DNA of 33,276 bases from the NCBI GenBank assembly GCA_030831315.1, contig JAURLI010000003.1:82884-116159 (forward strand), written 5' to 3'. Under the pieces are notes generated by a model. The model was not told the origin of the DNA, did not search any database, and was given only the letters and a program-made list of their open reading frames with translations. This document shows, piece by piece, positions 14,752 through 31,394 of this stretch. Source of the stretch: Alphaproteobacteria bacterium. Its GTDB lineage: Bacteria > Pseudomonadota > Alphaproteobacteria > SMXQ01. The position numbers and the translations under genes were made by a program. Each line of letters starts with the position of its first letter. Within the stretch, counting starts at the first letter, position 1.

Positions 14752-15354
14752 ATGATGAAGAACACGAAGTTTGGAATATTCATTGCGGTCCTCCTGGCGC
14801 TGACGGTGGCGCTTTCGGCCTGCGCGCGCCGTCAGCCTGCTCCCGTCGCCTCCGTTGAGTCCGTTCAGGAAGCGGCCGGCGAGGCCGGGATCACCGACGA
14901 ATATCGCCTCGGCCCCGGCGACAAGCTCAAGGTCGTGGTCTTCGGTCATCAGGACGTCTCGGGCGAGTTCGTCATCGACGGTTCGGGCAACCTGTCCCTG
15001 CCGCTGGTCGGGCAGTTCAAGGCGGGGGCCTTGACCGTGCCGGGGCTGCAGGAGTCCCTGCGTCAGACCCTCAATGACAAGTACATCGTCAATCCCCGTG
15101 TCTCGATCGAGGTTTTGAATTACCGGCCGTTCTTCATTCTGGGCGAGGTCAACAAGCCCGGTTCCTACCCCTATGTCGCAGGCATCGACGTGACCCAGGC
15201 GGTGGCGCTGGGCGGCGGCTATACCCGCAGGGCAAGGACGTCTTCGGTGCGCATTACACGCGAAACCGGCCAGGGACGGGTGACCCTGTCGGCCCAGCCC
15301 CACACCGCGGTTCTGCCCGGCGACACAATTGAGGTAGAGCGGCGACTGTTTTAA
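14752..15354 (+). CDS. Wza-like polysaccharide export lipoprotein
   Basis: Periplasmic/outer-membrane lipoprotein of 200 residues in the polysaccharide export (PES/SLBB) family. The signal peptide ends in the lipobox LSAC with lipidated Cys24. The PES domain begins YRLGPGDKLKVVVFGHQDVSGEFVIDGSGNLSLPLVG. One SLBB-type domain follows, with FFILGEVNKPGSYPYVAGIDVTQAVALGGGYTRRA. It is half the length of E. coli Wza (379 residues) and lacks the extra domains and C-terminal amphipathic helix that forms the Wza outer-membrane pore. Two ATGs (14752, 14755) are adjacent. It lies between the beta-barrel and tyrosine-kinase genes, a classic export order. Confidence 0.93.
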   Translation: MMKNTKFGIFIAVLLALTVALSACARRQPAPVASVESVQEAAGEAGITDEYRLGPGDKLKVVVFGHQDVSGEFVIDGSGNLSLPLVGQFKAGALTVPGLQESLRQTLNDKYIVNPRVSIEVLNYRPFFILGEVNKPGSYPYVAGIDVTQAVALGGGYTRRARTSSVRITRETGQGRVTLSAQPHTAVLPGDTIEVERRLF

Positions 15355-15628: not shown

Positions 15629-17959
15629 ATGAGCAGCGTAACGCCACTTCATCCATCTTCAGATCGAGGATCGCGCCTCGGCGACGAATATGTGAGCCGC
15701 GAAGAGGAGGCCCAGTCCGGCCTTTCCATTCCGCACGTCCTCAATATCCTCAAGCGTCGCAAATATCTCATCCTCGGCATCGTCTTGGCTGGCGCGGCCT
15801 GGGCCACCGTCTATTCCAACAGCCTGACGCCTCTTTACAGTGCGGAAACAAACCTGGTGGTCGAACCCAGCCGCCAGCGTGTCCTCAATGTCGAGTCGGT
15901 GGTATCCAGCCTGCGCCCCGACTATTACACGAACGAAACGGAAGCAGCCGTGCTCGGCTCGCGCGAGATTGCGCGCAAGGTCGTGGTCAAACTCAACCTG
16001 ATCGAAAGCCCGCTGTTCAATCCTTCGCTCCGGCCGAAAAACAAGAGCCTCATCTCCGTAATAACGTCACCATTCAAGACCGCGGCTTCGGCCGCGGTGA
16101 CCTGGGCGCAGGATCTCGCCACCGGCGGCCGCCATAGCGCTGAAAAGCTTGCGAAGCGCACCGAGGCCCTGGCCAAGGCCCAGAAGACGCCCGAGCAGCT
16201 TCGCGACGAAGCGGTCGAGGAGGCGACGGATCTCTTCCTGTATGGGCTGAAGGTCCTCCCGGCGCAGCGTTCCCGGGTGATTACGGCGCGCTTCAGTTCG
16301 CCCGACCCCGCCATGGCGATGCTGGCATCCAACACGATTGCCGACATTTACGTTCTCGAGCAGCTCGAATCGAAGGGGCGTGCGACCTCGCGCGCCTCCG
16401 AGTGGCTCAACCAGCGTGCCCAGGAACTGCGCAACCGGGTCATCGCGTCCGAGCGCCGGCTGGAGGAATTCCGCCGCAAGTCGGGCATCGTTGAAGTCGG
16501 CGGCGCGAGTGTGTATGCGCGCCAGCGCGCCGAACTGGACAGCCAGCTTGTCGCCGCCCGCGGCAAGCGCGCGGAAGCGGAGGCTCGTTTTTCACAGGTT
16601 CAGAGGCTGCTTTCACAGGGCGCCAATGCAGAATCCATTGCGGCGGTGCTGGATTCGCCGCTGATCCAGAAGTTGCGTGAACAGGAATCCCTGATCATGC
16701 GCAAGATTTCCGAGTTGAAGACCCAGCTGCGCGAAGGGCATCCGCGCATGGTTCTCGCGGAAAACGAAATCAAGGACCTGCGCGGCAAGATCGAGAGCGA
16801 GGTGAAGAAGATCGTCACCAACCTCAAGAGCGAAACCGAAATCGCCGTCGTCAGGGAAAAGAACCTCAACGACGAAATCAGTCGGATTCAGGTGAAGCTC
16901 GACGAGCAGCACGAGGCAGAGGTTTCCCTGCGGGCGATCGAATCCGAGGTCAAGGCCAACAAGCAGCTTTACGAGACCATCCTTGCGCGCCTCAAGGAAA
17001 CCGGCGTTCAGGACCAGTCGCTGCAGGAAGCCGATGCCCGCATCATTTCACGGGCGGTCGAGCCGGCATCGCCGTATTACCCGCGCAAGAATTTCATCAT
17101 CGTCTCGGCGACGCTGATTTCGCTGGTGCTCGGCGTCGGTCTCGCGGTTCTGCTCGAGTTCTTCGACAAGGGCTTCCGCAGCATCTACCAGCTCGAGGCA
17201 TATACGGGCCTGCCGACGCTCGGCATCGTGCCGCTGGTCCCGGGTGCCAAGGCGCGTCACAAGAAAGCACACGAGGTGGCCGCAGATCAGCCGGGCAGCG
17301 CTTTCGGCGAAGCGATCCGGACATTGCGTACCAGCCTGATGCTGGCGAACGTCGACCATCCGCCGAAGACGGTTCTCGTCACGTCCGCCGTTCCGGGCGA
17401 GGGCAAGACCTCGACAGCGCTTGCACTGGCCGCGATGGCCAGCCGTTCGGGCCAGAAATGCGTCGTTATCGATTGCGATATCCGACACCCCAGCGTTCAT
17501 ACGAACCTCAGCTGTGCTAACGAGCGCGGTCTCAGCGATTATCTGGCGGGACGCTGCCAGTTGTCCGATGTGATCGAGGTGGAGCCCCGTTACGGCATTC
17601 GTTACATCACCGCTGGTTCCTATGTGCCCAATCCGCCCGATCTTCTGGGGGCGCCCAAGATGCGCGAGCTTCTGCGCCGCCTGTCCGATGTCTTCGATCT
17701 TGTCATTCTCGATGCGCCGCCCCTTCTGGCCGTTTCCGATACGCTGGTTCTTGTCCGTTATGTCGATCGGACGGCCTTCGTCGTGCGCTGGGTCAAGACT
17801 GCGCGCCAGAACGTATTGTTGGCCTTGCGTCAGGCGGTCGAGGCGGGCGCTTCCGTTGCCGGTCTTATCCTGACGCAGGTGGACCTGCGCAAGCAAAGCC
17901 AGTACGATTCCACCGACGCCGGTTACTACCAGTATCATAACTATTACACGAACGACTGA
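15629..17959 (+). CDS. Polysaccharide co-polymerase / tyrosine autokinase (Wzc-like BY-kinase)
   Basis: Inner-membrane protein of 776 residues that controls chain length and export and autophosphorylates. An N-terminal Wzz domain has TM1 at about 47-63. A long periplasmic coiled-coil part with GNVR-type features leads to TM2 at about 489-507. The cytoplasmic kinase domain has Walker A in AVPGEGKTS (Lys593), Walker A' VVIDCD (612-617) and Walker B LVILDAPP (691-698). The C-terminus is a tyrosine cluster, YDSTDAGYYQYHNYYTND (759-776), with six tyrosines as autophosphorylation sites. N-terminal and kinase parts are fused, as in proteobacterial Wzc. No low-molecular-weight tyrosine phosphatase is coded in the window; a PPP-type phosphatase lies at 24639. 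Confidence 0.95.
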   Translation: MSSVTPLHPSSDRGSRLGDEYVSREEEAQSGLSIPHVLNILKRRKYLILGIVLAGAAWATVYSNSLTPLYSAETNLVVEPSRQRVLNVESVVSSLRPDYYTNETEAAVLGSREIARKVVVKLNLIESPLFNPSLRPKNKSLISVITSPFKTAASAAVTWAQDLATGGRHSAEKLAKRTEALAKAQKTPEQLRDEAVEEATDLFLYGLKVLPAQRSRVITARFSSPDPAMAMLASNTIADIYVLEQLESKGRATSRASEWLNQRAQELRNRVIASERRLEEFRRKSGIVEVGGASVYARQRAELDSQLVAARGKRAEAEARFSQVQRLLSQGANAESIAAVLDSPLIQKLREQESLIMRKISELKTQLREGHPRMVLAENEIKDLRGKIESEVKKIVTNLKSETEIAVVREKNLNDEISRIQVKLDEQHEAEVSLRAIESEVKANKQLYETILARLKETGVQDQSLQEADARIISRAVEPASPYYPRKNFIIVSATLISLVLGVGLAVLLEFFDKGFRSIYQLEAYTGLPTLGIVPLVPGAKARHKKAHEVAADQPGSAFGEAIRTLRTSLMLANVDHPPKTVLVTSAVPGEGKTSTALALAAMASRSGQKCVVIDCDIRHPSVHTNLSCANERGLSDYLAGRCQLSDVIEVEPRYGIRYITAGSYVPNPPDLLGAPKMRELLRRLSDVFDLVILDAPPLLAVSDTLVLVRYVDRTAFVVRWVKTARQNVLLALRQAVEAGASVAGLILTQVDLRKQSQYDSTDAGYYQYHNYYTND

Positions 17960-18000: not shown

Positions 18001-18723
18001 ATGTCTGATCAGCACGTAACAAAAGAACGTTCGCCCCGCAGCCTCGTCATGGTCGTCGCGATTCTTTTCGTTGGGGCCGTCGCGTTGTTCTCGGGCGTGC
18101 CTCAGTTGATGTCTGGCCTTTACAGCAATCCCTATGACGACGTGTTCAGCGATATTGCGCGCGACCGTCCCGTTGCTCCTGAGCTTCTGTCGCTCGCCGA
18201 AACCAGTCGCCTTTCAGCCATTTCCTGGGCCGAGAGCGGCGCTCTATACGCCGATCTTGCCGTATTGCGGCTTGCTGCCGCATCGCGCGCCCCGGTTTTC
18301 TCCGTACAGCGTCGTCAGCTCGCCGGCGAAGCCCATGATTTTCAGCAAATGGCCCTGGCACGGGCCCCCGGCGACGGATTCGGCTGGGTGCGGCTTTTAC
18401 AGACCATGGCGGTAACGGCGGCCCCGGTCGCCGATGTCGAGCGCGTTCTCGATGTTTCTCTTGCCCGCGCCTCCAGCCATCCCACCCTTGTCCTGACCCG
18501 CATCGCACTCGTGGGGCTTTACTGGCGCGGGCTCAGCCCGGCCATGAAAGACCGCATGGGCCGTCAGTTCATACTTGCCGCTCGCTGGTCGCCGACTGCG
18601 CTGGTCCGGATTGCCAGAGCGCGGCAAATCGAGGACGCGGTTGCCGGTTATGTCGCTGCGGACCCGATCGCGCTGGCGCGCTACACTTACGCGCGCACCC
18701 GGATCAGGAACCAGGCGCCTTGA
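18001..18723 (+). CDS. Unassigned membrane-anchored protein of the exopolysaccharide locus
   Basis: Protein of about 240 residues, not recognised. A basic N-terminus (KERSPRS) precedes one hydrophobic segment at about 14-33, so it is probably anchored in the inner membrane with the rest in the periplasm. The body is helical and Ala/Arg-rich (SLAETSRLSAISWAESGALYADLAVLRLAA, ARAPGDGFGWVRLL), suggestive of TPR-like helical repeats without a confident repeat count. The ATG at 18001 is chosen over a GTG at 17974. It follows the kinase gene by 41 bases and is probably co-transcribed. Its last 20 bases overlap the convergent O-antigen-ligase-type gene. An accessory role in assembly or export is inferred from position only. 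Confidence 0.75.
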   Translation: MSDQHVTKERSPRSLVMVVAILFVGAVALFSGVPQLMSGLYSNPYDDVFSDIARDRPVAPELLSLAETSRLSAISWAESGALYADLAVLRLAAASRAPVFSVQRRQLAGEAHDFQQMALARAPGDGFGWVRLLQTMAVTAAPVADVERVLDVSLARASSHPTLVLTRIALVGLYWRGLSPAMKDRMGRQFILAARWSPTALVRIARARQIEDAVAGYVAADPIALARYTYARTRIRNQAP

Positions 18724-20125
18724 TGTCCTCGGAGGGCGCTTCCTGGGTGCCGGTACGAACCCGGTGAGGGAAGGACTGGGCGAAACAAACCCCGGCAATG
18801 GCAACATAGGTCACGGCGACGGCCGGGATCTCCAGTGAGAAATCGACAAAAGCGTGCATGGCGACGAGTACCGTTGCGCCGGCGCCGATGGCTGGAATGA
18901 GATCGTTTCGCTTTCGCCGCGCCGCGCCACGCAGGAATACCAATACCAACAGGGCAGACAGCACCAGCATTATCATGAGTGCTGGCAGGCCGTGTTCGAG
19001 GCCAAACTCGAGATAGGTGTTGTGGGCATGTGCATAGATCGCAGATTCCGCGTTCATTTGGTCAGGCCGCACCGAATGGAACATGCCCTCGAAGCCACCG
19101 CCGCCGATGCCCAGGAACGGCCGCTCAAGGATCAATTGCATCGTTGCCTCGAACACGTTCAGCCGGCTTGATGAATGAAAGGCGATCGCTTCGATCCGGG
19201 AGGCGAGCTTGTCGCCGGTAAGAGCAAGCACCGCTACGCCGCCGAGTGCCAGCGCGGCGCCAAATCGCAGGATACGCAAACCTGACACCTTCGATGACCG
19301 TGACGCGCACAGGAGAAAGCCGATGACCCCGCCAGCGGTAGCGACCATGGCGCCGCGCGATGCCGTAAAGACCATCGCGAGGGCGATCATGCCGATCAAT
19401 CCGAGCAGGAGGTAGAGCCTGAAATCCAGCGCCTCCGTCGCTCGAAGAATTCCGGCGATACTGCGCAGGCTTATGCCCGCCGAAATGCGCCGCAGTTCCT
19501 CGACGAGAAGGCCGAAGCCGATGAGCAGGGCGAGGGCTGCATAAGTCGCGAAATGATTGCGGTTGACGAAGGTGCTGCTCAGGAACTCGGGGAAGGCCCA
19601 TTTGGGGAACCACAGGATGGTGGCGTTCCCGGAAAAATAAACTGCCAGTCCGTAAAGTGCGTTGACGGCGGCGGCGAGAAGAATGACCCAGAGCATCACG
19701 CGTGCCCGGGCGTCGTGGCCGCCGAATTGAAGGGCCAGCCAGAAAATCCCGCCATAGGCTGCGAATTTCGCAGTTTCGCCCGCCGCGGCCGCGGGGTTCA
19801 CGGCAATGGTGCCCGGTAATGCTTGGCCGGGCGCCGCCGACGCCTGCCGCCAGACCGGATGATGCAGGAATTCCGGCAGCCCCGGTAACGCCTGCACGAT
19901 CATCCATGCCAGGACGAGAAGATACCCCGTCGCGAGCCAGCGATAGTGATTCCACGCCACGGTCAGGGTGCCCGGCCTCAGGAAGGCGGCCGCGGCCATC
20001 GGCAGCAGCATGGTGCCGACCAGGACGGCAAGCAGGCCCCAGGCCCACATTCGGTTGGCGCCGAAAGGCACGGCGACCAGCGCCAGCACCAGCAGGAGAA
20101 GCGTATAGACGATGCGCTGGATCAT
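18704..20125 (-). CDS. O-antigen ligase / polymerase family membrane protein (Wzy_C)
   Basis: Polytopic inner-membrane protein of 473 residues with about twelve hydrophobic stretches and a large periplasmic loop. The Wzy_C/O-antigen ligase signature region is visible: STFVNRNHFATYAALALL, FTASRGAMVATAGG, then after the long loop ERPFLGIGGGGFEGMF and YAHAHNTYLEFGLEHGLPAL. Such proteins polymerise lipid-linked repeat units or transfer polymer to an acceptor; sequence alone does not separate the two. A second, unrelated Wzy-like protein is coded at 28867, so this one could be the ligase or the polymerase of a separate step. It follows the sugar-phosphate transferase gene by 42 bases on the same strand. 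Confidence 0.9.
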   Translation of the reverse strand: MIQRIVYTLLLLVLALVAVPFGANRMWAWGLLAVLVGTMLLPMAAAAFLRPGTLTVAWNHYRWLATGYLLVLAWMIVQALPGLPEFLHHPVWRQASAAPGQALPGTIAVNPAAAAGETAKFAAYGGIFWLALQFGGHDARARVMLWVILLAAAVNALYGLAVYFSGNATILWFPKWAFPEFLSSTFVNRNHFATYAALALLIGFGLLVEELRRISAGISLRSIAGILRATEALDFRLYLLLGLIGMIALAMVFTASRGAMVATAGGVIGFLLCASRSSKVSGLRILRFGAALALGGVAVLALTGDKLASRIEAIAFHSSSRLNVFEATMQLILERPFLGIGGGGFEGMFHSVRPDQMNAESAIYAHAHNTYLEFGLEHGLPALMIMLVLSALLVLVFLRGAARRKRNDLIPAIGAGATVLVAMHAFVDFSLEIPAVAVTYVAIAGVCFAQSFPHRVRTGTQEAPSEDIKAPGS

Positions 20126-20167: not shown

Positions 20168-21562
20168 TCAATAAGCGTTGCGGTTCACGAAACCGAAGAT
20201 GGCTGTCATCACAAGAATTTTCAGGTCCAGCCAAAGCGACCAGTGCCCGATGTAATAGAGGTCATGTTCGATGCGCTGGCGCATCTTGTCCAGTGTATCG
20301 GTCTCGCCCCGCAACCCGTTCACTTGCGCCCATCCGGTCATGCCGGGCTTCACGCGATGCCGGGCGAGATAGCCGTCAAGCATTTGCGCGTATTCCCGGT
20401 TATGGGCGATGGCGTGAGGCCTTGGCCCCACCAGCGACATCTCGCCGCGCAGGACATTGAACAGCTGCGGCAGTTCATCAAGGCTGGTGCGACGCAGGAT
20501 GCGGCCGAGCGGGGTGATACGCGGATCATCCTTGCGGGCCTGGGGCACGATATCGCGGGCGCCTTCAGGCGTCTCCGCTTCGCGCATGGTGCGGAATTTT
20601 AACAGGGTAAAGGCGTTGTTGTTGAAGCCGAGTCGCCGCTGGCGAAACAAGACCGGTCCCGGAGACGTCAGGCGAACCATCAGGGCGATGACAAGCATCA
20701 GCGGGGCGGCAAAAATCAATATCACCGATGCCAGTATCAGGTCTTCGAGCCGTTTTACGACCCGGCTCCAGATGGAAAGCGGACGACGGTGCACGCCGAA
20801 CAGAGGCAGTGGGCCGACGAAAGACACCCCGAGAATGGGGAAGGGCAGTTCTCGGGATTCGGGGAGATAGCTGACTTCGACCGAAACGGTGCCGAGAATG
20901 CCGACAATCCGGGCCAGGGCTTCGTCATCATGGCCCGGCATCGCATGGTCCGGCATCGCGATGATGATTTCATCGATCTGTTCGCGGGTAATCTTTTCCA
21001 AAAGGGCATCGATCTCTTGCGGCGAAAAAACGCCGACGATGACGATGTCTCGCCCGGTCACGGTTTCGGAAAGGCCTCGAATTCTTTCTGCTTTGTCGCC
21101 GGTGCCGACCACGGCGACCCGGCGGCGCAGCTTGCCCTCTTCCCGCCACTGCTCGATTCGGCTGATGGCGATGATGCGACAGACGATGAGTGCTGCCGTC
21201 ACGGAAACGAACCAGGTCACCGCCCACAGGCGCGAAAAGCTATCCGAGGTCTTGGTGAAATATGCGATGACGATCAATACCGTCATGACCGCCGCCCAGG
21301 CCACCGTCGCGCGTCCGAATTGTCCGCGTACGCGGACCAGCGAGCCGATGTCGTAAAGGCCTATGGCTTGGGCGGCGTTGGCGATGCCGAATGCCCCAAG
21401 GAAAATGGCGAGCGCATAACGTGCCGGAAGATCGGAAATGTTGTCGCGCATCCAGAAAGCGAAAACGCCGGCGGCAATCACCACGCAGACGTCCGCTAGC
21501 CGCAGCAGGCCGATCATCAGGCCGCCCCGTTCCGCCGGGCTGAAGGAATTGTGGAAGAACAT
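20168..21562 (-). CDS. Polyprenyl-phosphate sugar-1-phosphate transferase (WcaJ/ExoY-like initiating enzyme)
   Basis: Initiating glycosyl-1-phosphate transferase of 464 residues (PHPT family). It transfers hexose-1-phosphate from a UDP-sugar to undecaprenyl phosphate at the cytoplasmic membrane face. Several N-terminal membrane helices precede a Rossmann-like middle region (RRRVAVVGTGDKAERIRGL). The catalytic C-terminal domain follows one more hydrophobic segment and contains FRQRRLGFNNNAFTLLKFRTM, RRTSLDELPQLFNVLRGEMSLVGPRPH and KPGMTGWAQVNG. The protein ends with IFGFVNRNAY, typical of undecaprenyl-phosphate glucose phosphotransferases. Glucose is thus the likely but unproven sugar. The ATG at 21562 is used; an internal ATG 15 codons on is possible. 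It lies downstream of the LapG-like gene. Confidence 0.93.
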   Translation of the reverse strand: MFFHNSFSPAERGGLMIGLLRLADVCVVIAAGVFAFWMRDNISDLPARYALAIFLGAFGIANAAQAIGLYDIGSLVRVRGQFGRATVAWAAVMTVLIVIAYFTKTSDSFSRLWAVTWFVSVTAALIVCRIIAISRIEQWREEGKLRRRVAVVGTGDKAERIRGLSETVTGRDIVIVGVFSPQEIDALLEKITREQIDEIIIAMPDHAMPGHDDEALARIVGILGTVSVEVSYLPESRELPFPILGVSFVGPLPLFGVHRRPLSIWSRVVKRLEDLILASVILIFAAPLMLVIALMVRLTSPGPVLFRQRRLGFNNNAFTLLKFRTMREAETPEGARDIVPQARKDDPRITPLGRILRRTSLDELPQLFNVLRGEMSLVGPRPHAIAHNREYAQMLDGYLARHRVKPGMTGWAQVNGLRGETDTLDKMRQRIEHDLYYIGHWSLWLDLKILVMTAIFGFVNRNAY

Positions 21563-21647: not shown

Positions 21648-22340
21648 CTAGGCCCGCCGGTGCAGCCACCAATGGGTCTCGTTGATCGAGTAGATCGGCT
21701 GGTAGTGGCGGATGAGGCTGGCCGGAACGACGTCACGGATCTGGTTGTCGAGGATATATTTCTCGCCATTAAGCTCGACCACAAGCACTGCATGGGCAAC
21801 CCGCAGGTTCAGGTCGCGCAGGACGACGATGCGCATCTGGCTGTTGGAGAAGCCGAGTGCCCGCAGCGACATGAATTTGGCGATGGCGTAATCCTCGCAA
21901 TCGCCATCCTTGTCGAAGAACTGGAAGGGGCTCGCCCAGTAGTCGTCAACCTGCCAGTTGACGATATCGAGGATATAGCGTGTCCGGTTATGGAAGTAGT
22001 TCACCTCGCGCAGTTTTTCGGCGGGCGATCGCCCGGCCATTGAATTCAGGAACGCCTTCCAGTCATCCACCGGGCAGCGCGTGAACATGCCCGACGAACA
22101 AGGTGCCCGCGGCACGCGTGATTCGCTGAAATACCGCTCGAGCGCTCCGCGCCACTTCGGAAACGGCACGAGGTTTTCGGAACGGATCGTCAGGGTATTA
22201 AAGATGTCGGGACCGGACTGGGTAAAATCGGCGCCTGCCTTGCCGGCCATCGCCAGAATGAGGACAAGCGCCAGCGTCGCCCGGCGCATAACCGGTGATG
22301 CAAGCAATCGGCGCAAGGTCTTTGGTCCCGGCATTTCCAT
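21648..22340 (-). CDS. LapG-like transglutaminase-like cysteine protease (BTLCP)
   Basis: Exported cysteine protease of 230 residues in the bacterial transglutaminase-like cysteine proteinase family. The signal or anchor segment ATLALVLILAMAGKAGA is followed by the papain-like core. The triad is visible: Cys138 in DGDCEDYA, His173 in VAHAVL and Asp188 in YILDNQ. These positions are close to those of LapG, and the acidic residues flanking the Cys match its calcium site. LapG cleaves large surface adhesins in the periplasm and is held by the c-di-GMP receptor LapD. No adhesin or LapD is coded here. The divergent neighbour is a degenerate HD-GYP receptor. It appears to head a minus-strand run with the sugar-phosphate transferase (85-base gap) and the ligase gene. 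Confidence 0.9.
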   Translation of the reverse strand: MEMPGPKTLRRLLASPVMRRATLALVLILAMAGKAGADFTQSGPDIFNTLTIRSENLVPFPKWRGALERYFSESRVPRAPCSSGMFTRCPVDDWKAFLNSMAGRSPAEKLREVNYFHNRTRYILDIVNWQVDDYWASPFQFFDKDGDCEDYAIAKFMSLRALGFSNSQMRIVVLRDLNLRVAHAVLVVELNGEKYILDNQIRDVVPASLIRHYQPIYSINETHWWLHRRA

Positions 22341-22360
22341 CGTGGCGGGAGCCTAGACCA

Positions 22361-22376
22361 TAAAATTTTAATAAAA
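22361..22376. repeat. 16-base AT-rich motif, copy 2
   Basis: TAAAATTTTAATAAAA is identical to 15504-15519. It lies in the 94-base gap between the divergent LapG-like and receptor genes, 20 bases upstream of the protease start and about 58 upstream of the receptor start. It could serve both promoters. Confidence 0.6.
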
Positions 22377-22434
22377 TCTCAAGCGCCGCCGTTTACCTTG
22401 CGGATAGGCCCTAACCGGCCGTTTTTAAGGGATA

Positions 22435-24585
22435 TTGAGCGCAGCCGTGAGCATCAGCAACCGAACGGAACTGCCCGTGCCGGGCGACGGGTCGCCGGCG
22501 AAGGAGCCGCGCGCCCTTGTCGGTGTCGCGGCCACCATCGTCGTGCTTGCCGCCGTCGTCGTTGCGGCGGTCATGGGGGTGTTTTCCTTCATCGATTCCG
22601 AACGCGCGCGTGAACTGCGCGCCTGGCAAACACGGCTTGCCATCGTTGCCGATTCGCGCGCCGGTGCCGTCGCACGCTGGTTCACCGAGCGCGTCAGCGG
22701 CGAATTGGCCGAACTTGCCGCCAATGAAAGCTTGCAGATTTACATGACGCAGCTCGCGCTCGCACAGGGTGCGCGTGCCTCCATTGCCGATGAGCCGGCG
22801 CAGGCGACTTTCCTGCGCAATCTTCTCGTGGTGACGGCCGAGCGTTCGGGTTTCAGCGTGCCCGCAGCGGGCCCGGAGGTTTCCGCCAACGTGCGCCGCA
22901 TCGGCATTGCCGGGATCGGTCTTTACGATATGACCGGCAGGCCGCTTGCGACGACGCCTGCGATGGTGCCCCTCGATGGATCGCTGGCCGCGTTCTTCGG
23001 GTCGCTCGCGCGCGGGTCGGTGAAGGTGCTCGATCTCTACCGGTCCGATGTGGGCGGCGCGACCATCGGTTACGCGGTGCCCGTTTATCGTGTGCAGGGC
23101 AGCGGCCAGCCGAGCGAGCAGGTCGGCTGGATCATCGGCATCAAGCCCGTGGCACGCGAGCTTTTCCCGTTGCTGGCCCAGCCCGGCGAGGTCAACAAGT
23201 CCGCCGAGAATATCCTTATTCGACACCGCGCCCCGCTGATCGAGTATCTGTCGCCTCTTGGCGACGGCTCGCCGCCGCTGACACGTTCCTTCGCCGACAA
23301 CACGCCGGGGCTTGCGGCGGTCGCCGCAGCCTCGCGGCCGGGGGCCTTCGTCGCCGCCCGCGATTACCGCGAGCGTGAAGTGCTGGCGATTTCCCGTCCC
23401 GTTGCCGGGCTGCCGTGGCTGCTCGTCAGCAAGATCGATCGGGCCGAGGCGCTCGGCGCCACCGACGCAAGGCTCAATCGCCTTCTGATCATCGGGCTTC
23501 TGTCCGTGGCCGGTCTTGCCGCCATCATTCTGGCGCTGTGGCGTCACGGCGCGTCACGCCGGGCGAGCACCGCCGCCCAGCGTTATGCGGAAATGGCCCG
23601 CCGCTTCGAGGCGCGCGGACAGCTTCTGCGCCTCGTCACCGACAGCCAGCCGAATGCCATCTTCATTGCCGATGCCGCGGGGCAGATCAGCTTTGCCAAT
23701 CAGGAAGCATCCCGGCGTGCCGGCATTCCAATTTCCGATATGCTGGGGAAGGGACTTGCTGCGATCTTCGGGCCCGCGGCAGCCCGTGGGCGCATCGAAT
23801 TGAACCGCGAGGCGATCGAGAGCGGTGTCAAGGCGGTACAGACCCACCAGGAAGAAGGTGGCAGCGTCATTCAGGCGGTCGCGGTTCCGCTGCCGCGTGA
23901 AGATAGCGAAACCCTGCCCTCGGTTCTGGTCGTCGAAAACGACGTGACCGAAGCCGTGACCGAACGTGCGCGGCGTGAGCGCACGCTCAACCAACTGGTC
24001 GGCACATTGATGGCGGTGGTGGACAAACGCGATCCCTACGCTGGCCATCAGTCGGAGCGGACGTCCTTCCTTGCCCGGGCCATCTCCGGGGAAATGGAAC
24101 TCGACCCGGTCATTGTTCGTACGGCGGAGATCGCGGGTTCGGTCATGAGTCTCGGCAAGATGCTGGTTCCCGCCGAGGTACTGACCCGCAGCGGCAGCCT
24201 GACCGCCGACGAGATCCAGAAAGTGCGCGATTCGCTGCAGGCGACCGCAGACCTGCTGTCGGATATCGAGTTCGACGGGCCGGTTGTCGATACCCTGCGT
24301 CAGCTCCAGGAGCGCTGGGACGGCACGGGTGTGCCGCGCGGCCTCAAGGGCGAGGAAATCCTTCTGCCGGCACGCATTGTCGCGGTGGCCAACGCCTTTG
24401 TGGCCATGACCAGCCCGCGCGCATGGCGCGCGGGGTCCTCTGTCGATGAAGCCATCGATCAGCTGATGGCCGGTGTCGGCACCTCCTTCGATCGGCGTGT
24501 CGTCGCCGCTCTGGTCAACTACTTCGACAACCGCGGCGGTCGGGCCGCCTGGGACGATCTGTCCCGTGCGCAGGCGGCGCCGTAG
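22435..24585 (+). CDS. Membrane receptor: periplasmic dCache-like sensor, PAS domain and degenerate HD-GYP domain
   Basis: Sensor protein of 716 residues. TM1 lies at about 29-52, a periplasmic region of about 300 residues looks dCache-like (with IGLYDMTGRPLATTP and IGYAVPVYRV), and TM2 lies at about 349-369. A coiled linker leads to a PAS domain at about 398-510 (DSQPNAIFIADAAGQISFANQEAS). The C-terminal domain aligns with HD-GYP c-di-GMP phosphodiesterases: MAVVDKRDPYAGHQSERTSFLA, LTADEIQKVRD and the region around 621-660. The catalytic HD of LHDIGK is MS in VMSLGK (570-575). HHExWDGxGYP is LQERWDGTGVP (624-634). Hydrolysis is therefore unlikely; it may bind c-di-GMP or signal by conformation. 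The start is uncertain: TTG at 22435 has AAGGGA just upstream, and GTG at 22447 is an alternative. Confidence 0.85.
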   Translation: MSAAVSISNRTELPVPGDGSPAKEPRALVGVAATIVVLAAVVVAAVMGVFSFIDSERARELRAWQTRLAIVADSRAGAVARWFTERVSGELAELAANESLQIYMTQLALAQGARASIADEPAQATFLRNLLVVTAERSGFSVPAAGPEVSANVRRIGIAGIGLYDMTGRPLATTPAMVPLDGSLAAFFGSLARGSVKVLDLYRSDVGGATIGYAVPVYRVQGSGQPSEQVGWIIGIKPVARELFPLLAQPGEVNKSAENILIRHRAPLIEYLSPLGDGSPPLTRSFADNTPGLAAVAAASRPGAFVAARDYREREVLAISRPVAGLPWLLVSKIDRAEALGATDARLNRLLIIGLLSVAGLAAIILALWRHGASRRASTAAQRYAEMARRFEARGQLLRLVTDSQPNAIFIADAAGQISFANQEASRRAGIPISDMLGKGLAAIFGPAAARGRIELNREAIESGVKAVQTHQEEGGSVIQAVAVPLPREDSETLPSVLVVENDVTEAVTERARRERTLNQLVGTLMAVVDKRDPYAGHQSERTSFLARAISGEMELDPVIVRTAEIAGSVMSLGKMLVPAEVLTRSGSLTADEIQKVRDSLQATADLLSDIEFDGPVVDTLRQLQERWDGTGVPRGLKGEEILLPARIVAVANAFVAMTSPRAWRAGSSVDEAIDQLMAGVGTSFDRRVVAALVNYFDNRGGRAAWDDLSRAQAAP

Positions 24586-24638
24586 AGCCCTGCCGCTGGG
24601 TCGTGGATTTCGCCCCGCGCATCGGTCATATTGACTGC

Positions 24639-25406
24639 ATGTTTGAGCGAATTTTCGGACGTCCCCGCAAACCGGCAGCCAACGCCGCCCGTGTTCCGGA
24701 GGGAAGCCGCGTCTACGCGATCGGGGATATCCACGGCCGCCTCGATCTCCTGCGCAGATTGCACGGCATGATCGGCGAAGATGCCGCGAGCTTCGCTGGG
24801 CCGCGCAAGGTCCTGGTCTATCTCGGGGATTACGTCGACCGCGGCCTACAATCGCGCGAGACCGTCGATTACCTTCTGGAATATCCGCTGCCCGGTTTCG
24901 AACGCGTGTTTCTGATGGGCAACCACGAGCGCGCGCTGCTCGATTTCCTTGCCGATTCGCGGGTGGCGCTCGACTGGATGACCTACGGCGGCGATGCGAC
25001 GCTTTACAGCTACGGTGTCGGTCTCGAGGGCCCGCGCTCCCAGCCTGCTACCCTTGCTCGCGCGCAGGAAAAATTTCGCGCCAATCTTCCCGACAGCCAT
25101 TTTGCGTTTTATCAGGGCCTCGGCCTGCTTCACGCCGAGGGCGATTACATTTTTGTTCATGCGGGCTTGCGTCCCGGCGTGCCGATCGAACGTCAGCAGG
25201 AAAGGGATGTGCTCTGGATCCGCGACGAGTTTCTCGATTCGGAAGAAAACTTCGGCAAGGTCGTCGTGCATGGCCACAGCATCACCCGTGCGCCCGAGGT
25301 CAGGAAGAACCGGATCGGTATCGATACCGGCGCGTTCGCATCCGACAAGCTGACGAGCCTGGTACTTGAGGGAGAGACCGGCCGCTTCCTCGATACGGTC
25401 CACTGA
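24639..25406 (+). CDS. PPP-type metallophosphoesterase (serine/threonine protein phosphatase family)
   Basis: Cytosolic metal-dependent phosphatase of 255 residues. The PPP signature motifs are intact: GDIHGRLD at the N-terminus, GDYVDRG and GNHERALLD, with later metal ligands in FVHAG and VVHGHS. This layout matches the bacterial PrpA/PrpB-like protein phosphatases and lambda phosphatase. The ATG at 24639 (MFERIFGRP) is preferred to an earlier GTG at 24603. It sits 53 bases after the receptor gene and four bases before the FkbM gene, so it is coded with the polysaccharide genes. Dephosphorylation of the Wzc-like kinase or of a glycan intermediate are both possible. Confidence 0.9.
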   Translation: MFERIFGRPRKPAANAARVPEGSRVYAIGDIHGRLDLLRRLHGMIGEDAASFAGPRKVLVYLGDYVDRGLQSRETVDYLLEYPLPGFERVFLMGNHERALLDFLADSRVALDWMTYGGDATLYSYGVGLEGPRSQPATLARAQEKFRANLPDSHFAFYQGLGLLHAEGDYIFVHAGLRPGVPIERQQERDVLWIRDEFLDSEENFGKVVVHGHSITRAPEVRKNRIGIDTGAFASDKLTSLVLEGETGRFLDTVH

Positions 25407-25410
25407 AATC

Positions 25411-26343
25411 ATGGCCGTCGCCGACCAGAGCGGGACGACGTTGATGGGCGGCCTTTACAATATTCTTGGACAAATTCTGCTGCGACGCCGATTCGGCCTC
25501 GCCTCTCTTCTTGCAGGGCCTTTCCTTGCGGTTCTGTGGCAGATTTACAAAAGAACTGTGGGGCGTCCGATCACGATCAGAACGTGGATGGGACCACGTT
25601 TCGTCCTTCGTCCAGATTCGGTGACGTCGTCGCGTTTCGTTTACGAAGGGCAACCGGACCGCGATTACATCGATGTTCTGGCGTATTTTTCCGGCGGCGA
25701 TGCGAGCTTTGTCGATGTCGGTGCAAACGCAGGCATGTACAGCGTGCTCCTGAGCGAGTTGTTTCCGCGCGCGTGGCTGTTTGAGCCGAACCCGGTGGCG
25801 GTAAAGCTGGCGCGGGAAAATCTTGTGGTCAACGGCGTAGAGCCGACCTTCATGATCGTCGAAATGGCTGTTTCCGACTGCCCGGGCCGGGCCCGGTTCC
25901 CCATCCTGTCGACCGCCGATCCTGCGGCTCGTCTAGAGGACGGCCCGCCGGGGGAAGATGACGGCAGTACCCGCGAGGTTGAAGTCACGACCCTCGATCT
26001 CGCCTTGCCTCAGCGTGGCGAATATGTGCTCAAGGTCGATGCGGAAGGTTATGATTGCGAGGTGTTGCAGGGGGCGACCGGGCATCTCGCGAGGGGCGGC
26101 ATCCGCGCCGGGTTGTTCGAATGCCATACCGATGAGACCCTTGCCTGTGTTCTCGGCGTGCTCCGGGGCTTCGGCTATCGGGTCTTCGACGGCCCGCGAG
26201 AGATCAGCGCACCTGGGGCCGAGCGCGGCCGCGATCTTTTCTTGATACGTGGCGACCTGGTTGATGCCTATCTTGTGCATCTGCATGCCCTGATGGTGCG
26301 AGGCGGGACGGGTTGGCGACCGATGGATGGCAGGGCGGCATGA
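25411..26343 (+). CDS. FkbM-family SAM-dependent methyltransferase
   Basis: Protein of 310 residues with an FkbM-type methyltransferase domain. The SAM-binding motif I is FVDVGANAGMYSVLLSE, followed by LFEPNPVAVKLARENL, and motif VTTLDLALPQRGEYVLKVDAEGYDCEVLQGA is diagnostic of FkbM. A basic N-terminal segment of about 60 residues with a hydrophobic stretch (FGLASLLAGPFLAVLWQIYK) may associate with the membrane. The likely role is O-methylation of a sugar residue in the exopolysaccharide. The ATG at 25411, just after the phosphatase stop, is preferred. Its TGA is inside the ATGA start of the flippase gene. Confidence 0.9.
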   Translation: MAVADQSGTTLMGGLYNILGQILLRRRFGLASLLAGPFLAVLWQIYKRTVGRPITIRTWMGPRFVLRPDSVTSSRFVYEGQPDRDYIDVLAYFSGGDASFVDVGANAGMYSVLLSELFPRAWLFEPNPVAVKLARENLVVNGVEPTFMIVEMAVSDCPGRARFPILSTADPAARLEDGPPGEDDGSTREVEVTTLDLALPQRGEYVLKVDAEGYDCEVLQGATGHLARGGIRAGLFECHTDETLACVLGVLRGFGYRVFDGPREISAPGAERGRDLFLIRGDLVDAYLVHLHALMVRGGTGWRPMDGRAA

Positions 26344-27638
26344 AAGACGTGCTCAAGGCTTTCCTGACGACCGGTGTCGTTCAGATCGTCAATATCCTGA
26401 GCGGAATCATGCTGGCGCGAATCCTTCTGGTCGAAGGACGGGGCGAGCTTGCAGCGGCGACATTGTGGCCTACCGTTGTCGCCGCGCTTGGCACTCTCGC
26501 CATCCACGAGTCGATCACTTATCACCTCTCGCGCAAAACCGCGCCGGAAAATACCGTCCTTTTTTCAGCGCTTGTGCTGGTGGCAGGCCTTTCGGTGCTC
26601 GCTTCCGCAGTGGCCTTCATCACGGTTGATGTTGCCCTGGCTGGATACAAGTCCGACGTCGTTACGGCGGCGCGCTATTGTATCGCCTTCATTCCCCTGA
26701 ATTATGCGGGTCTTTGCTTGGTCGGGATGTTTCAGGGGGCCATGCGGCTCGATGACTGGAACATCCTGCGCGCCTTCGTGCATGTGGCCTATACGGTTCT
26801 GATCGGCCTTTTCTATCTTGCAGGATGGGGCACGCCCGTCGGAATGGTATTCGCCATGCTGCTGGCCAACGGGCTGCTCATCGTCGTTGCCATGGTGCGT
26901 GCGGCGCCACGCGGCTGGCTGCGGCCCTCCCGGCCTCTGGTTGTTCGCGAGGTTGCCGGCTTCGGCCTGCGTGCCCATGCCGGTTCGGTCGTGCAGGCAT
27001 TGGCCGAACGTGTCGATCAGATGTTCATATCGGTGATGATCGGCAGTACCGGTCTCGGCCTCTACGTCGTTGCGGTGACGGTGGCGCGCCTCGTGGCGGT
27101 GCCTGCGGCGACCCTCTCGTCTCTTGCCCTGACCAAGATCGCCAATGGCATTACCCCCGTTGCCCGGCAGGATCTGTTTGCGCTCTATCTGCGCGTGACA
27201 CTTGCTCTTGTTCTGCCTGCGATGGTGCTCGTAATGGGTTTCGCCGGCTTGATTCTCTCCATTTTCTTCGGCCCCGCCTTCGCCGCAGCAAAGCCGGTTG
27301 CCATGGTTCTCGCCGTTGCCATGTTCCTGCTGGGTTTCAAGCTGGTTCTTGCGGCCGGATTCAAGGGCCTCGGGCGCCCGCTGGTGCCCGCGCGCGGGGA
27401 ACTGGCAGGGCTGCTTTGTTCCGTCGTTTCCCTAGCCGTACTGATGCCGCTTTACGGCCTTTTTGGCGCAGCTATTGCCGCAGTCCTCGCCCAGGCGGCA
27501 GGCCTTGTTTACATGATGATCGATGGCAGGCGAAGCCTCGATCGGAGCTGGGCAGACCTGTTGCGCCCGCGCGTCGACGATGTCCGCATGGTCGTCGATC
27601 AGCTGCGCGCTTTGAGGAACGGGGGGCGGGGGCCATGA
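26340..27638 (+). CDS. Wzx-type oligosaccharide flippase (MOP superfamily)
   Basis: Inner-membrane protein of 432 residues with about twelve to fourteen hydrophobic segments and few charged residues. The start LKAFLTTGVVQIVNILSGIMLARILLVEGRGELAAATLWP is the typical TM1-loop of polysaccharide flippases. The mid-protein segment VAGFGLRAHAGSVVQALAERVDQMFISVMIGSTGLGLYVVAVTVARL is the repeat of this motif at the second half. It should move undecaprenyl-linked repeat units across the membrane before polymerisation. Start and stop both lie in ATGA overlaps with the FkbM and glycosyltransferase genes, so it is in an operon with both. Confidence 0.9.
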   Translation: MKDVLKAFLTTGVVQIVNILSGIMLARILLVEGRGELAAATLWPTVVAALGTLAIHESITYHLSRKTAPENTVLFSALVLVAGLSVLASAVAFITVDVALAGYKSDVVTAARYCIAFIPLNYAGLCLVGMFQGAMRLDDWNILRAFVHVAYTVLIGLFYLAGWGTPVGMVFAMLLANGLLIVVAMVRAAPRGWLRPSRPLVVREVAGFGLRAHAGSVVQALAERVDQMFISVMIGSTGLGLYVVAVTVARLVAVPAATLSSLALTKIANGITPVARQDLFALYLRVTLALVLPAMVLVMGFAGLILSIFFGPAFAAAKPVAMVLAVAMFLLGFKLVLAAGFKGLGRPLVPARGELAGLLCSVVSLAVLMPLYGLFGAAIAAVLAQAAGLVYMMIDGRRSLDRSWADLLRPRVDDVRMVVDQLRALRNGGRGP

Positions 27639-28870
27639 GCTTCCCGACGATCGGCGTTTTCCATCCGGGAACCCAGCATTCCTGGCATACGGCAATCGCG
27701 TTCCAGGACGGGGGCCAACTCGGCTGGCATGCGACGTCCATTTTTTGTGATCCCGGCCGGTGGCCCTGGCGCGCGGTGCATTGGCTGCCGGCCGGGGTTG
27801 CGGCGCGGGTGGAGCGGGAGCTTCGCCGCCGTTACACGCCGGAACTCGATCCCCGACATCTGCGGATTTTCGGACTTTCCGAATGGGCCGAGGTGTTTGC
27901 CCGTCGGCTTGGTTCCACGCGCATTGCCGACGCCGTCAACATATCGGGAAACAGGCGCTTCGGCCGCCAGGTCATCCGCCTTCTTGGGCGCGAACCGGTC
28001 GATGTCGTCTGGGGCTACAATACGTCGGCGCTCGAAGTGTTTCGCTGGGCGAAGCAGCACGGCATTCGCTGCGTCCTCGACCAGACCATCGGCCATCCGC
28101 GCGCCATGAACGAGATGTTTGCAGCTGAATACCGTGTTCACCCGGCCTATTTCGGGAAAGAGTATACGCCCTTCGATGCCGCCGCCATTGCGCGCCAGGA
28201 CGAAGAGGCGGCGCTCGCCGATATCGTCGTTTGCGGATCCGACTTCTGTGCCGATACCATGCGTGACAATGGCTGCGCGCCTGACAAGCTGCGCGTGGTG
28301 CCATATGGATTCAGCGATCGCCTGTTTCCCGAGGGGCCTCCCGCACGTGCGCCGCTGGCGGGGCGGCCGGTAAGGTTCCTGTTCGTCGGCACCCTCGAGC
28401 CGCGCAAGGGGGTTCCGTATCTGCTCGAGGCTTTCGCGGAAATCCCGCCCTCCGATGCGACCCTGACGCTGATCGGGCGTTGCGATATTCCGGCCCCGGT
28501 CATGGCGCGCTTCGCCGGACGCGTCACGCATGTACCGCATTTGCCGCGCGACGAACTGATCGCGCATTACCGTGCCGCCGATTGCTTCATATTTCCTAGC
28601 CTGTTCGAAGGCGGCGGCTTAGTTTTGTACGAAGCGGCCGCGGCGGGATTGGGCATCGTCCAGACCCGCTTCTGCGGCGACGGGGTGCGCGACGGAAAAA
28701 ACGGTATCGTTCTCGATCGGATCGATGCCGCGTCAGTTGGCGCTGCCATCCGCGGCGTGCTCGCGGATCGCGAGCAGCTCGTGCGATGGCAGGATGCCTC
28801 CTGGCGGATGCGCAAGGAGCGAAGCTGGGAAGCTTACGCGGTTCGGGTGCGGGAGATCGTGGCGAAATGA
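27635..28870 (+). CDS. Glycosyltransferase, GT4-like (group 1)
   Basis: Cytosolic or membrane-associated glycosyltransferase of 411 residues with the GT-B fold. The C-terminal group 1 domain shows RPVRFLFVGTLEPRKGVPYLLEAF and FPSLFEGGGLVLYEAAAAGLGIV, the latter carrying the E-x7-E motif of GT4 enzymes. The N-terminal half (TIGVFHPGTQHSWHTAIAF, DVVWGYNTSALEVFRWAKQHG) is the acceptor side. The frame is open far upstream, back to 26825 inside the flippase gene, but the flippase reading is clearly the coding one there. The ATG at 27635 in an ATGA overlap is the start. Donor and acceptor are unknown. Confidence 0.92.
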   Translation: MSFPTIGVFHPGTQHSWHTAIAFQDGGQLGWHATSIFCDPGRWPWRAVHWLPAGVAARVERELRRRYTPELDPRHLRIFGLSEWAEVFARRLGSTRIADAVNISGNRRFGRQVIRLLGREPVDVVWGYNTSALEVFRWAKQHGIRCVLDQTIGHPRAMNEMFAAEYRVHPAYFGKEYTPFDAAAIARQDEEAALADIVVCGSDFCADTMRDNGCAPDKLRVVPYGFSDRLFPEGPPARAPLAGRPVRFLFVGTLEPRKGVPYLLEAFAEIPPSDATLTLIGRCDIPAPVMARFAGRVTHVPHLPRDELIAHYRAADCFIFPSLFEGGGLVLYEAAAAGLGIVQTRFCGDGVRDGKNGIVLDRIDAASVGAAIRGVLADREQLVRWQDASWRMRKERSWEAYAVRVREIVAK

Positions 28871-30264
28871 TCGAGACCGGCCTGTTTCTTCAAACGGGAT
28901 TTTTCCTGATCGTTCTGCTGGCGTTCCTGTTTTCGCGCAGCGCCAGTTTTTTCCATCCGCTGACGATTTACCTGATTTTTCATTTCCTGGTATTCGTTCT
29001 GCGGCCGTTGATGGTGCATGCCTTCGACTTCAATACCATGTGGTACTACATTGAATTCAAGCCCGATGACTTGCAGTTCGTAAACACACTGTTGGTCAGT
29101 TCGGTCGGGCTTCTTGCTTTTGCTGTCGCGGTATCGTTCGCGGGACGCGCCAAAGTCGAATTCACCGTCGCCGAATTGCCGCCCTGGACTCTGGCGGAGA
29201 AGCGGTCGTTTCTGGTGGTGATCGCGTTGCTGTCGCCGCTTGCCGTCTACTCGGCCATTTTCGCCAAGGCCGGTGCGTCTTTCTCCGGCGAAGGCAATAT
29301 CCAGATGACCCTCGACCTGACGACGGGGATCTCGGTCTTCACCAACACCACAGGTTATATCGCCGATGCCCATGCCATGATGGGCACTTTGTTCATTTTG
29401 CTGATATGGCGGTTCAACTTTCGGCTTTGGGCTTATGCGCCATTCATCGCGTTTCTCGGCTATCGCGCTTTTCTGGGCTGGGGGCGATGGGCGATCATCA
29501 TGTCGATCTTCACGCTGTTGCTGGTTTACTTGTACCGCCACAGTCACCGGTGGCTGAAAATTCGCTATTTAGCGATCATCCTCCCGGTTTTCATACTGTT
29601 TCACAGCCTAGGCATGAACCGCGACCTCGTTCGTGATTACGTCGAGGACAAGGGCGTCGCCGTTGCCGATGTCCCCCAATACAAATCGAAAGAATCGTTC
29701 CTCGACCAGCTCGATAACCCGGACTTCGCCAATTTTGAATTTTTGGCATTCATCGTTTCGGTCGTTCCGGAGAAGTCGCAGACCTACACCTACTTCACCC
29801 AGTATCTGCAGCTTTTCACCGAACCGATTCCCCGAATCATATGGCCGGAGAAACCAATCGGAACCCCGATCAAGCTGATCAACCTGAACGACTTCGGAAA
29901 CTTCTTTTTCATGACCACGTCGCTCGTCGGCGACGGCTGGATGAGCTGGGGTTGGCTGGGGGTGGTTTTGACCCTGGCGGCGGTTGGTTTCGTGCTGGGG
30001 CGTCTGCATCGCTGGTACTGGCGCAATCAGTCGAATCCGAAGATCGTCATGGGCTATTTCGTCTTTTTGCCGCTGTCGATTTACTGGTTTCGTGATGGCG
30101 GCATTTCGATTGCCAAGATTTCGCTGTGGACCATTTTGCCAATCGTGTTGTGGTCGTTTTTCAGCAGGTTGATTGGCGATCTGCAGGAAAAGAGGCGTTC
30201 TTTGAAGCGTACCGGGGCGGTTGAGCCTCGCCGGTATTTTGATGGCCGTGGGGGCGGGCGATGA
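28867..30264 (+). CDS. Wzy-like oligosaccharide repeat-unit polymerase (putative)
   Basis: Polytopic inner-membrane protein of 465 residues with about ten to twelve hydrophobic segments and aromatic-rich sequence. I do not see a diagnostic motif, as is usual for Wzy proteins. The call rests on topology and on its position between glycosyltransferases and downstream of the flippase. A central loop of about 100 residues (MNRDLVRDYVEDKG to IIWPEKPIGTPIKLINLND) contains EPIPRIIWPEKPIGTP, similar to a segment often present in oligosaccharide repeat-unit polymerases, and is likely periplasmic. Base use is somewhat more T-rich than in the flanking genes. Both ends lie in ATGA overlaps. Confidence 0.75.
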   Translation: MIETGLFLQTGFFLIVLLAFLFSRSASFFHPLTIYLIFHFLVFVLRPLMVHAFDFNTMWYYIEFKPDDLQFVNTLLVSSVGLLAFAVAVSFAGRAKVEFTVAELPPWTLAEKRSFLVVIALLSPLAVYSAIFAKAGASFSGEGNIQMTLDLTTGISVFTNTTGYIADAHAMMGTLFILLIWRFNFRLWAYAPFIAFLGYRAFLGWGRWAIIMSIFTLLLVYLYRHSHRWLKIRYLAIILPVFILFHSLGMNRDLVRDYVEDKGVAVADVPQYKSKESFLDQLDNPDFANFEFLAFIVSVVPEKSQTYTYFTQYLQLFTEPIPRIIWPEKPIGTPIKLINLNDFGNFFFMTTSLVGDGWMSWGWLGVVLTLAAVGFVLGRLHRWYWRNQSNPKIVMGYFVFLPLSIYWFRDGGISIAKISLWTILPIVLWSFFSRLIGDLQEKRRSLKRTGAVEPRRYFDGRGGGR

Positions 30265-31394
30265 CGGCCGATGGCCCCATCCTCCATATCCTGCAATGCA
30301 CGAATCTCGGCGGGATGGAGCACGCCGCCCTGCGAACGATGGAGAACCTGCGTGGTCATGGCGCGCGGTTTCGGCTAGCGACACCCCGGCCATTTGGTCC
30401 GGGCGCTGCCGCCTTCCAGGCTTTCGATCCCGAGATGCGCGATTTTCCCTATCGCGGGCGTTTTGGCTGGCGCGATTTTCCCGCTTTTCGCCGCCATGTC
30501 CGCTCGCTTGCCGCCGGGTGCAGGGGCATCTGGGTGACCGGCACCAGCGCCGCATCACTGGCGGCTATTCGTGGCTTGCCGGGCCCGAAGGTCCTTTCCC
30601 ACCACTACCATCATTTTGAGCGGCCCTTTTCGTGGCTGCGTTGGCGGGCGTTCTACGAGCTCGTCTGCCGCGATCTCGATATCATCATCTATCCATCCGC
30701 CTTTACCCGTGACGAGGCCCTGCGTATTGCGCCATGGCTCAAGGAACGCGCGATCATCGTCCGAAACGGGTGCGAGATGGGCTATCGCGACGACAGCGAA
30801 CGCCGCCAGGCACGGGCGGACGCCCGCCGCCGTCTCGGTCTGCCGACGGACTCATTCATTGTCGGCGGTGCGGGTTGGCTGATCGACCGCAAGCGTTTTG
30901 ATGTTTTCCTGACGACAGCACAGAAGATAGCAGCGGCGATCCCTGCTGCGCGTTTCGTGATCTGCGGCGACGGCCCCTTGCGTGGCGCGCTGGAAGAACA
31001 GGCGCGCAATCTCGGAATTGCCGATCGCGTTCTTTTCGCCGGCTGGGTGCATGACATCGGCGAGTATTATCGGGCGTGGGATGTGGTGCTTTTCGTGTCC
31101 GACTATGACGCATTCGGACTGACGCCGATTGAAGCGGCCGTCCATGGGGCGGTGATCGTTGCCTCCGTGCGCTATGGCGGGCTCGGCGAGTTTCTCACCG
31201 ATGGCGAGAATGGCTTTCTGTTTTGCGATCACGATGTCACGGCGATGGCCGATCGGGTGACGCTCCTGTATTCTTCACCAGAACTCCGCGCGCGACTGCG
31301 GGCGGCGGCGGCGGAAAAGATCCAGCGTGAATACGACATCGAAAAAGTGACGCAATTCTTCAGGAAAACTTTTGGCGTGGGAGTTCCCCGATGA
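30261..31394 (+). CDS. Glycosyltransferase, GT4-like (group 1)
   Basis: GT-B glycosyltransferase of 377 residues. The N-terminus has LHILQCTNLGGMEHAALRTMENL, the typical glycine-rich acceptor-side loop of GT4 enzymes. The C-terminal domain has SFIVGGAGWLIDRKRFDVFL, RFVICGDGPLRGALEEQARNLGIADRVLFAGWV and DYDAFGLTPIEAAVHGAVIVAS with the E-x7-E-like motif. It should add a sugar to the lipid-linked repeat unit on the cytoplasmic face. Start and stop are in ATGA overlaps with the Wzy-like and next glycosyltransferase genes. Confidence 0.93.
   Translation: MTADGPILHILQCTNLGGMEHAALRTMENLRGHGARFRLATPRPFGPGAAAFQAFDPEMRDFPYRGRFGWRDFPAFRRHVRSLAAGCRGIWVTGTSAASLAAIRGLPGPKVLSHHYHHFERPFSWLRWRAFYELVCRDLDIIIYPSAFTRDEALRIAPWLKERAIIVRNGCEMGYRDDSERRQARADARRRLGLPTDSFIVGGAGWLIDRKRFDVFLTTAQKIAAAIPAARFVICGDGPLRGALEEQARNLGIADRVLFAGWVHDIGEYYRAWDVVLFVSDYDAFGLTPIEAAVHGAVIVASVRYGGLGEFLTDGENGFLFCDHDVTAMADRVTLLYSSPELRARLRAAAAEKIQREYDIEKVTQFFRKTFGVGVPR

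Follow-up and report, generated by a model that had tools for sequence, protein, structure and literature searches.

Background

Can a membrane receptor with a degenerate HD-GYP domain take the place of LapD in controlling a periplasmic protease? The question is raised by two divergent genes of an alphaproteobacterium, one coding for a BTLCP (Peptidase_C93) protease and the other for a transmembrane receptor. They lie in the window, by which we mean the whole analyzed stretch of 33,276 nucleotides; coordinates throughout use its numbering (Table 1). A sequence-only reading of this DNA had proposed that the receptor does LapD's job with different parts, which would make it a novel form of inside-out control.

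The claim of novelty does not hold, because HD-GYP-based replacement of LapD is already known. DvhD and DvhG of Desulfovibrio (Nitratidesulfovibrio) vulgaris have been published as a LapD analogue (Font et al. 2026, PMC13090378). The HD-GYP domain of DvhD, in which HD is changed to SQ, binds c-di-GMP without hydrolyzing it, and c-di-GMP-dependent control of the BTLCP DvhG by DvhD was shown experimentally (PMC13090378). As cited in that article, a 2024 PNAS study also supports the c-di-GMP results for DvhD; publication of this principle dates from 2024 to 2026. A second point of comparison is the Caulobacter BTLCP HvyA. Its gene lies among capsule export genes, close to pssY, which codes for a phosphotransferase; the catalytic triad is required to block capsulation, and control is by cell-cycle transcription and turnover (PMC4241560). 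The available text describes no partner receptor.

What is new, judging from sequence comparisons, is that the window receptor belongs to a distinct, widespread and mostly divergently transcribed alphaproteobacterial variant, here called group I, with a recurrent exopolysaccharide (EPS) gene order. L, G and C numbers below are our labels for loci, genomes and contigs.

Table 1. Features of the window, with the evidence for each
Feature	Coordinates	Strand	Evidence
Beta-barrel porin BBP2_2 of EPS locus	13341..14684	+	PF10082, 3.3e-70
Polysaccharide export lipoprotein (Poly_export/SLBB)	14752..15354	+	PF02563, 6.6e-21
Wzz/Wzc-type chain-length determinant and tyrosine autokinase	15629..17959	+	TIGR01007, above cut-off
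Wzy_C polymerase/ligase	18704..20125	-	PF04932, 1.7e-18
WcaJ-type undecaprenyl-phosphate glucose phosphotransferase, directly 3' of protease gene	20168..21562	-	TIGR03023, 1.5e-137, above cut-off
BTLCP (Peptidase_C93) periplasmic protease, 230 aa	21648..22340	-	apparent signal peptide; C148/H183/D198; D147/E149
Intergenic region between divergent genes, 94 bp	22341..22434	.	ORF coordinates
Receptor, 716 aa, TM - dCache - TM - PAS - degenerate HD-GYP	22435..24585	+	profiles, fold matches
Periplasmic domain, dCache fold, residues 50-346	22582..23472	+	AlphaFold and PDB match 9RC2
PAS domain, residues 403-507	23641..23955	+	PF08448, 2.8e-6; best PDB match DvhD PAS/HD-GYP, 9RC0
Degenerate HD-GYP, residues 525-689	24007..24501	+	HD_5, 5.7e-33
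Calcineurin-like phosphatase, conserved downstream neighbor of receptor in many relatives	24603..25406	+	PF00149, 4.6e-14
Further EPS genes: flippase, three glycosyltransferases, second polymerase-like gene	26313..32524	+	profile matches

The protease and the domains of the receptor

The protease matches PF06035 (E 8.8e-17, 61.8 bits versus a cut-off of 27), and its match to the NCBIfam LapG profile (2.4e-31, 108.7 bits) falls below the equivalog cut-off of 320. By these profiles it is classed as LapG-like and as a BTLCP, outside the LapG equivalog. Alignment with the LapG structures 4U65 and 4FGO bears out the intact Cys-His-Asp triad that had been read from the sequence, and the Ca-site residues are present as well; the LapG protease of Pseudomonas fluorescens has the same triad and Ca site. 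Its N-terminal sequence resembles a Sec signal peptide, and the protein is taken to be secreted. DvhG of D. vulgaris has a TM helix instead, whereas most DvhG orthologs have a signal peptide.

The receptor gene begins with TTG, and the position of its start is uncertain. Its periplasmic part had been described as dCache-like, and structure prediction agrees: the Pfam dCache profile scores only 0.037, but the AlphaFold model (pLDDT 93.6) resembles dCache domains, and its best PDB fold match is the periplasmic domain of DvhD (9RC2, E 6.4e-10, TM 0.72 by target length). No sequence match was found between these two periplasmic domains, and the one in the window is unrecognizable by sequence. For the cytoplasmic part, DvhD ranks first both in a sequence search of the PDB (9RC0, 3.8e-41) and in a fold search (9RC0 and 9RBZ, 5.8e-17). 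DvhD, represented by PDB entries 9RBZ, 9RC0 and 9RC2, is therefore the best structural match for every domain of the receptor, which also has the DvhD-type order of dCache (between two TM helices), PAS and HD-GYP. Profile and fold searches of the receptor yielded no LapD_MoxY_N, HAMP, GGDEF or EAL domain. In this it differs from LapD, like which it is catalytically dead and would follow an inside-out logic.

The degenerate active site

Loss of catalytic residues, the other observation on which the sequence-only reading was built, is confirmed. The metal ligands are gone (HD is MS, HH is LQ, and the D of VADxxDA is N, giving VAN), and GYP is GVP, without the Tyr. The 11 DvhD ligand residues named in PMC13090378 all agree with the numbering of the PDB sequence that we used. 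In this numbering, the window receptor is identical to DvhD at Y523, P567, L577, M646 and R650 (in the window receptor P567, L577 and R650 are P579, L589 and R662), and carries R for K520 and W for Y652. Residues Y621 (V in the window), K582 (I), E668 (G) and R569 are not kept. Because Y621, K582 and E668 are missing, the affinity for c-di-GMP, or even binding, is uncertain.

The same pattern holds across the 99 aligned group I rows, which include near-duplicates from overlapping searches. R650 is kept in 98, L577 in 97 and P567 in 92; M646 is M or L in 98, K520 is R in 98, and position 652 is mostly aromatic or His. The HD motif reads [M/L/I][N/S] in nearly all copies, and conservation does not extend to the GYP Tyr, K582 or E668. 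As aligned, group I is thus a family in which the metal site and the GYP Tyr are gone and most c-di-GMP-contacting residues are retained. Like DvhD, the window receptor lacks the metal ligands; it keeps c-di-GMP contacts to the extent given above, and differs from DvhD in having MS/MN in place of SQ and in lacking the GYP Tyr.

Signaling could also run from outside to inside. The dCache domain would then sense either a ligand in the periplasm or the protease once loaded, and the degenerate HD-GYP domain would act as a ligandless protein-interaction module. dCache domains usually bind small ligands, and in a dozen relatives the gene after that of the protease codes for an EAL protein. The receptor has no output domain other than HD-GYP, however, R650, L577 and P567 are kept in 92 to 98 of the 99 rows, and DvhD is a precedent for the opposite direction; we regard the outside-in arrangement as quite improbable.

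Conservation of the pair

The sequence-only reading had drawn its link from adjacency, and adjacency is widely conserved. In a first survey of 61 related genomes, a BTLCP gene adjoins the receptor gene in all nine close full-length relatives (40-100% identity) and in all four distant ones (26-29% identity), and none of 17 loci matching only the HD-GYP or PAS part has a BTLCP within about 1.5 kb. A wider scan of genome contigs covered 329 relatives and 80 loci. We took as testable the 69 loci with at least 1.2 kb upstream. Protease and receptor genes adjoin each other in 60 of these, and in 59 they are divergent. At the other nine (L062, L071, L074, L091, L096, L076, L082, L083 and L086), no BTLCP flanks the group I receptor in the sequence available. 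Five of the BTLCP-less group I receptors form one clade.

The two genes may be mere neighbors, or the receptor a decayed phosphodiesterase, for which the loss of catalytic residues would speak. Both ideas are strongly disfavored by the conserved pairing and by strong constraint across many families, and we give them almost no weight. A comparison of distance matrices for the periplasmic domain and the protease gave a positive correlation, no stronger than that for the cytoplasmic part, and no specific contact signal.

Other features of these loci were noted in passing. In a dozen of them (L059, L066, L070, L072, L075, L077, L079, L081, L104, L108, L115 and L121), the group I protease gene has, on its 3' side, a divergent gene for an EAL-domain protein. 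The records of L090, L105 and L114 are titled Verrucomicrobia, Anaerolineae and Mesoflavibacter, and their receptors are nested in the alphaproteobacterial tree; these are probably mislabeled or contaminated assemblies.

Two groups of receptors

In a tree of HD-GYP domains, the window receptor falls in group I (support 100/99), and DvhD joins a second alphaproteobacterial clade, group II (97/93). DvhD and group II together form the sister clade of group I, and all of these stand apart from active HD-GYPs (99/96), of which the outgroup is small. The protease tree splits similarly. A further degenerate HD-GYP, L019 (G025), joins group I on a long branch, and its contig also carries a BTLCP about 20 kb away.

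Group II pairs are the same module in genuine Dvh-type operons, and occur in the family and genus of the window organism (L040-L043, G051, G090 and G133). L040, from its own genus, has the Dvh plan, an operon of RTX/VWA protein, T1SS ABC, HlyD, BTLCP and receptor, and the dCache domain of this receptor does match that of DvhD by sequence (6.2e-18). Unlike the window pair, group II has tandem genes and the GYP Tyr and, at L040, an RTX/VWA adhesin and T1SS within the operon. Pairs of both groups lie side by side at L119:2515-3285(-) and on contig C3 of G051 (L204:5800-6495). In the group II BTLCP there, Ser replaces the catalytic Cys (GGDSED), possibly making it a pseudo-protease, and the neighboring group I protease is intact.

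An exopolysaccharide locus around the pair

The sequence-only reading had overlooked that the pair sits within an EPS locus (Table 1), and that a LapA-type adhesin is not detectable in the genome. The window pair resembles DvhD-DvhG in setting a dCache-PAS-degenerate HD-GYP receptor beside a BTLCP; it differs in its divergent genes and in having EPS genes where the Dvh system has an RTX adhesin and T1SS, both of which are absent from the locus. Several families share, whole or in part, the order Wzc, (Wzy), WcaJ, BTLCP, receptor, phosphatase, as seen in G038, G070, G093, L058, L065 and L113.

EPS-linked loci are scattered over a fast tree of receptors and reach its base, where the place of G038 is a flagged long-branch join. 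Linkage to EPS genes does not mark a single clade: eight EPS loci need seven changes on this tree and are no more clustered than in many shuffles. Since scattered loci share an identical gene order, an ancestral EPS arrangement that was lost many times would fit better than repeated assembly.

With its BTLCP gene set among polysaccharide export genes and next to one for a hexose-1-phosphate transferase, the locus recalls that of HvyA (PMC4241560). The window protease might accordingly restrict capsule or EPS catalytically, with the receptor a mere neighbor or acting on something else. HvyA itself, in a capsule export locus near pssY and dependent on its triad, is the model, and some BTLCPs lie near Wza/Wzc without a receptor (for example, L174, L177 and L202). 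Against this, receptor and protease stay paired across contexts, and the window protease clusters with receptor-linked BTLCPs, apart from a receptorless clade with strong PF06035 matches (100/99). We consider such a role unlikely.

No substrate of the protease was identified in the window. A [TAP]AAG site, the LapG consensus, has a single match among the window EPS proteins, in Wzy; it is not conserved in relatives and was dismissed as chance. One [TAP]AAG match also lies inside the receptor itself.

Adhesins and c-di-GMP enzymes

The organism's own genome is 99.2% complete, but it is a MAG of 89 contigs, and absence from it is not proof. It codes for seven proteins with a clear GGDEF domain and five with an EAL domain. 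Profile searches detected no LapD domain in it, so that a canonical LapD elsewhere in the genome, which would have spoken against the proposal, was not found. A search for a retention-module (LapA-type) adhesin was also negative, and the same search gives matches in adhesin-bearing relatives. With GGDEF and EAL proteins present and no retention-module adhesin, c-di-GMP input is available and the usual substrate was not found. The only RTX protein is a short stand-alone ORF of about 261 aa between unrelated genes (G000:C10:6568-7080). One T1SS ABC/HlyD pair lies on contig C9 with no adhesin beside it; it was rejected as a partner of the protease-receptor pair, since its neighbors are cupin/TctC/M20-type genes.

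The pair may nonetheless control an adhesin as in the Lap and Dvh systems, with a LapA-type RTX adhesin encoded at another site or missed by the assembly, and the EPS locus incidental. About 20 relatives have a group I pair adjoining T1SS genes or a giant RTX adhesin, and a large subclade of group I sits next to such adhesins. One of these, in the L068 genome, is complete at its N-terminus; it shows RTX repeats, a TAAG motif and similarity to retention_LapA, scored at 39 bits and so short of the cut-off of 50. Giant repeat genes often go unassembled, and the genome does have the C9 T1SS pair. The completeness of the genome, its single short RTX ORF, the negative retention-module search, the C9 T1SS without neighboring adhesin, and the recurrence of one EPS gene order in several families count against adhesin control, which we hold to be a possibility of some substance, short of an even chance.

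Taking the EPS-linked loci together with the RTX-adhesin-linked subclade, group I is probably a means of controlling surface structures at large through a protease, and a polysaccharide role in some lineages is a new possibility.

A model for the window pair

We favor, with reasonable confidence, reading the pair as an alphaproteobacterial version of DvhD-DvhG, a switch in which a c-di-GMP-bound receptor would hold the protease; the target most likely lies in or near the EPS locus. By homology with DvhD and from the retained residues, the degenerate HD-GYP domain would bind c-di-GMP without cleaving it. Binding would reshape the receptor dimer, a change passed along the PAS stalk and the membrane helices, after which the dCache domain in the periplasm would restrain the protease. 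A drop in c-di-GMP would free it to cut the periplasmic part of a surface structure. If the target is encoded in or near the EPS locus, as is most likely, c-di-GMP would control polysaccharide display; the alternative target is an unlinked or unassembled adhesin. HvyA (PMC4241560) offers a precedent for a polysaccharide-linked BTLCP target. More tentatively, the EPS-locus form could be a c-di-GMP-gated protease switch for polysaccharide export, an HvyA-like restriction factor under a DvhD-like receptor; this may be the use from which group I started, and adhesin control a later branch.

Conclusions

That a degenerate HD-GYP/dCache receptor stands in LapD's place is well supported. The functional half of the original proposal survives, on the strength of the pairing, the homology to DvhD and the lack of a detectable LapD; its novelty belongs to the Desulfovibrio work.

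In an even sample of the class (114 genomes), BTLCP occurs in 33 genomes and LapD_MoxY_N in one, never together; the single LapD_MoxY_N match is an 879-residue open frame (L170, in G063). Most of the BTLCP neighborhoods were inspected, and no fewer than 18 of these 33 genomes have a receptor of the type described here next to the BTLCP, where it supplies the missing partner. These numbers suggest that the HD-GYP solution, described experimentally only in Desulfovibrio so far, is common in alphaproteobacteria. The recurrent EPS gene order makes it a concrete question whether c-di-GMP may control polysaccharide display through periplasmic proteolysis, and what an HvyA-type protease cuts.
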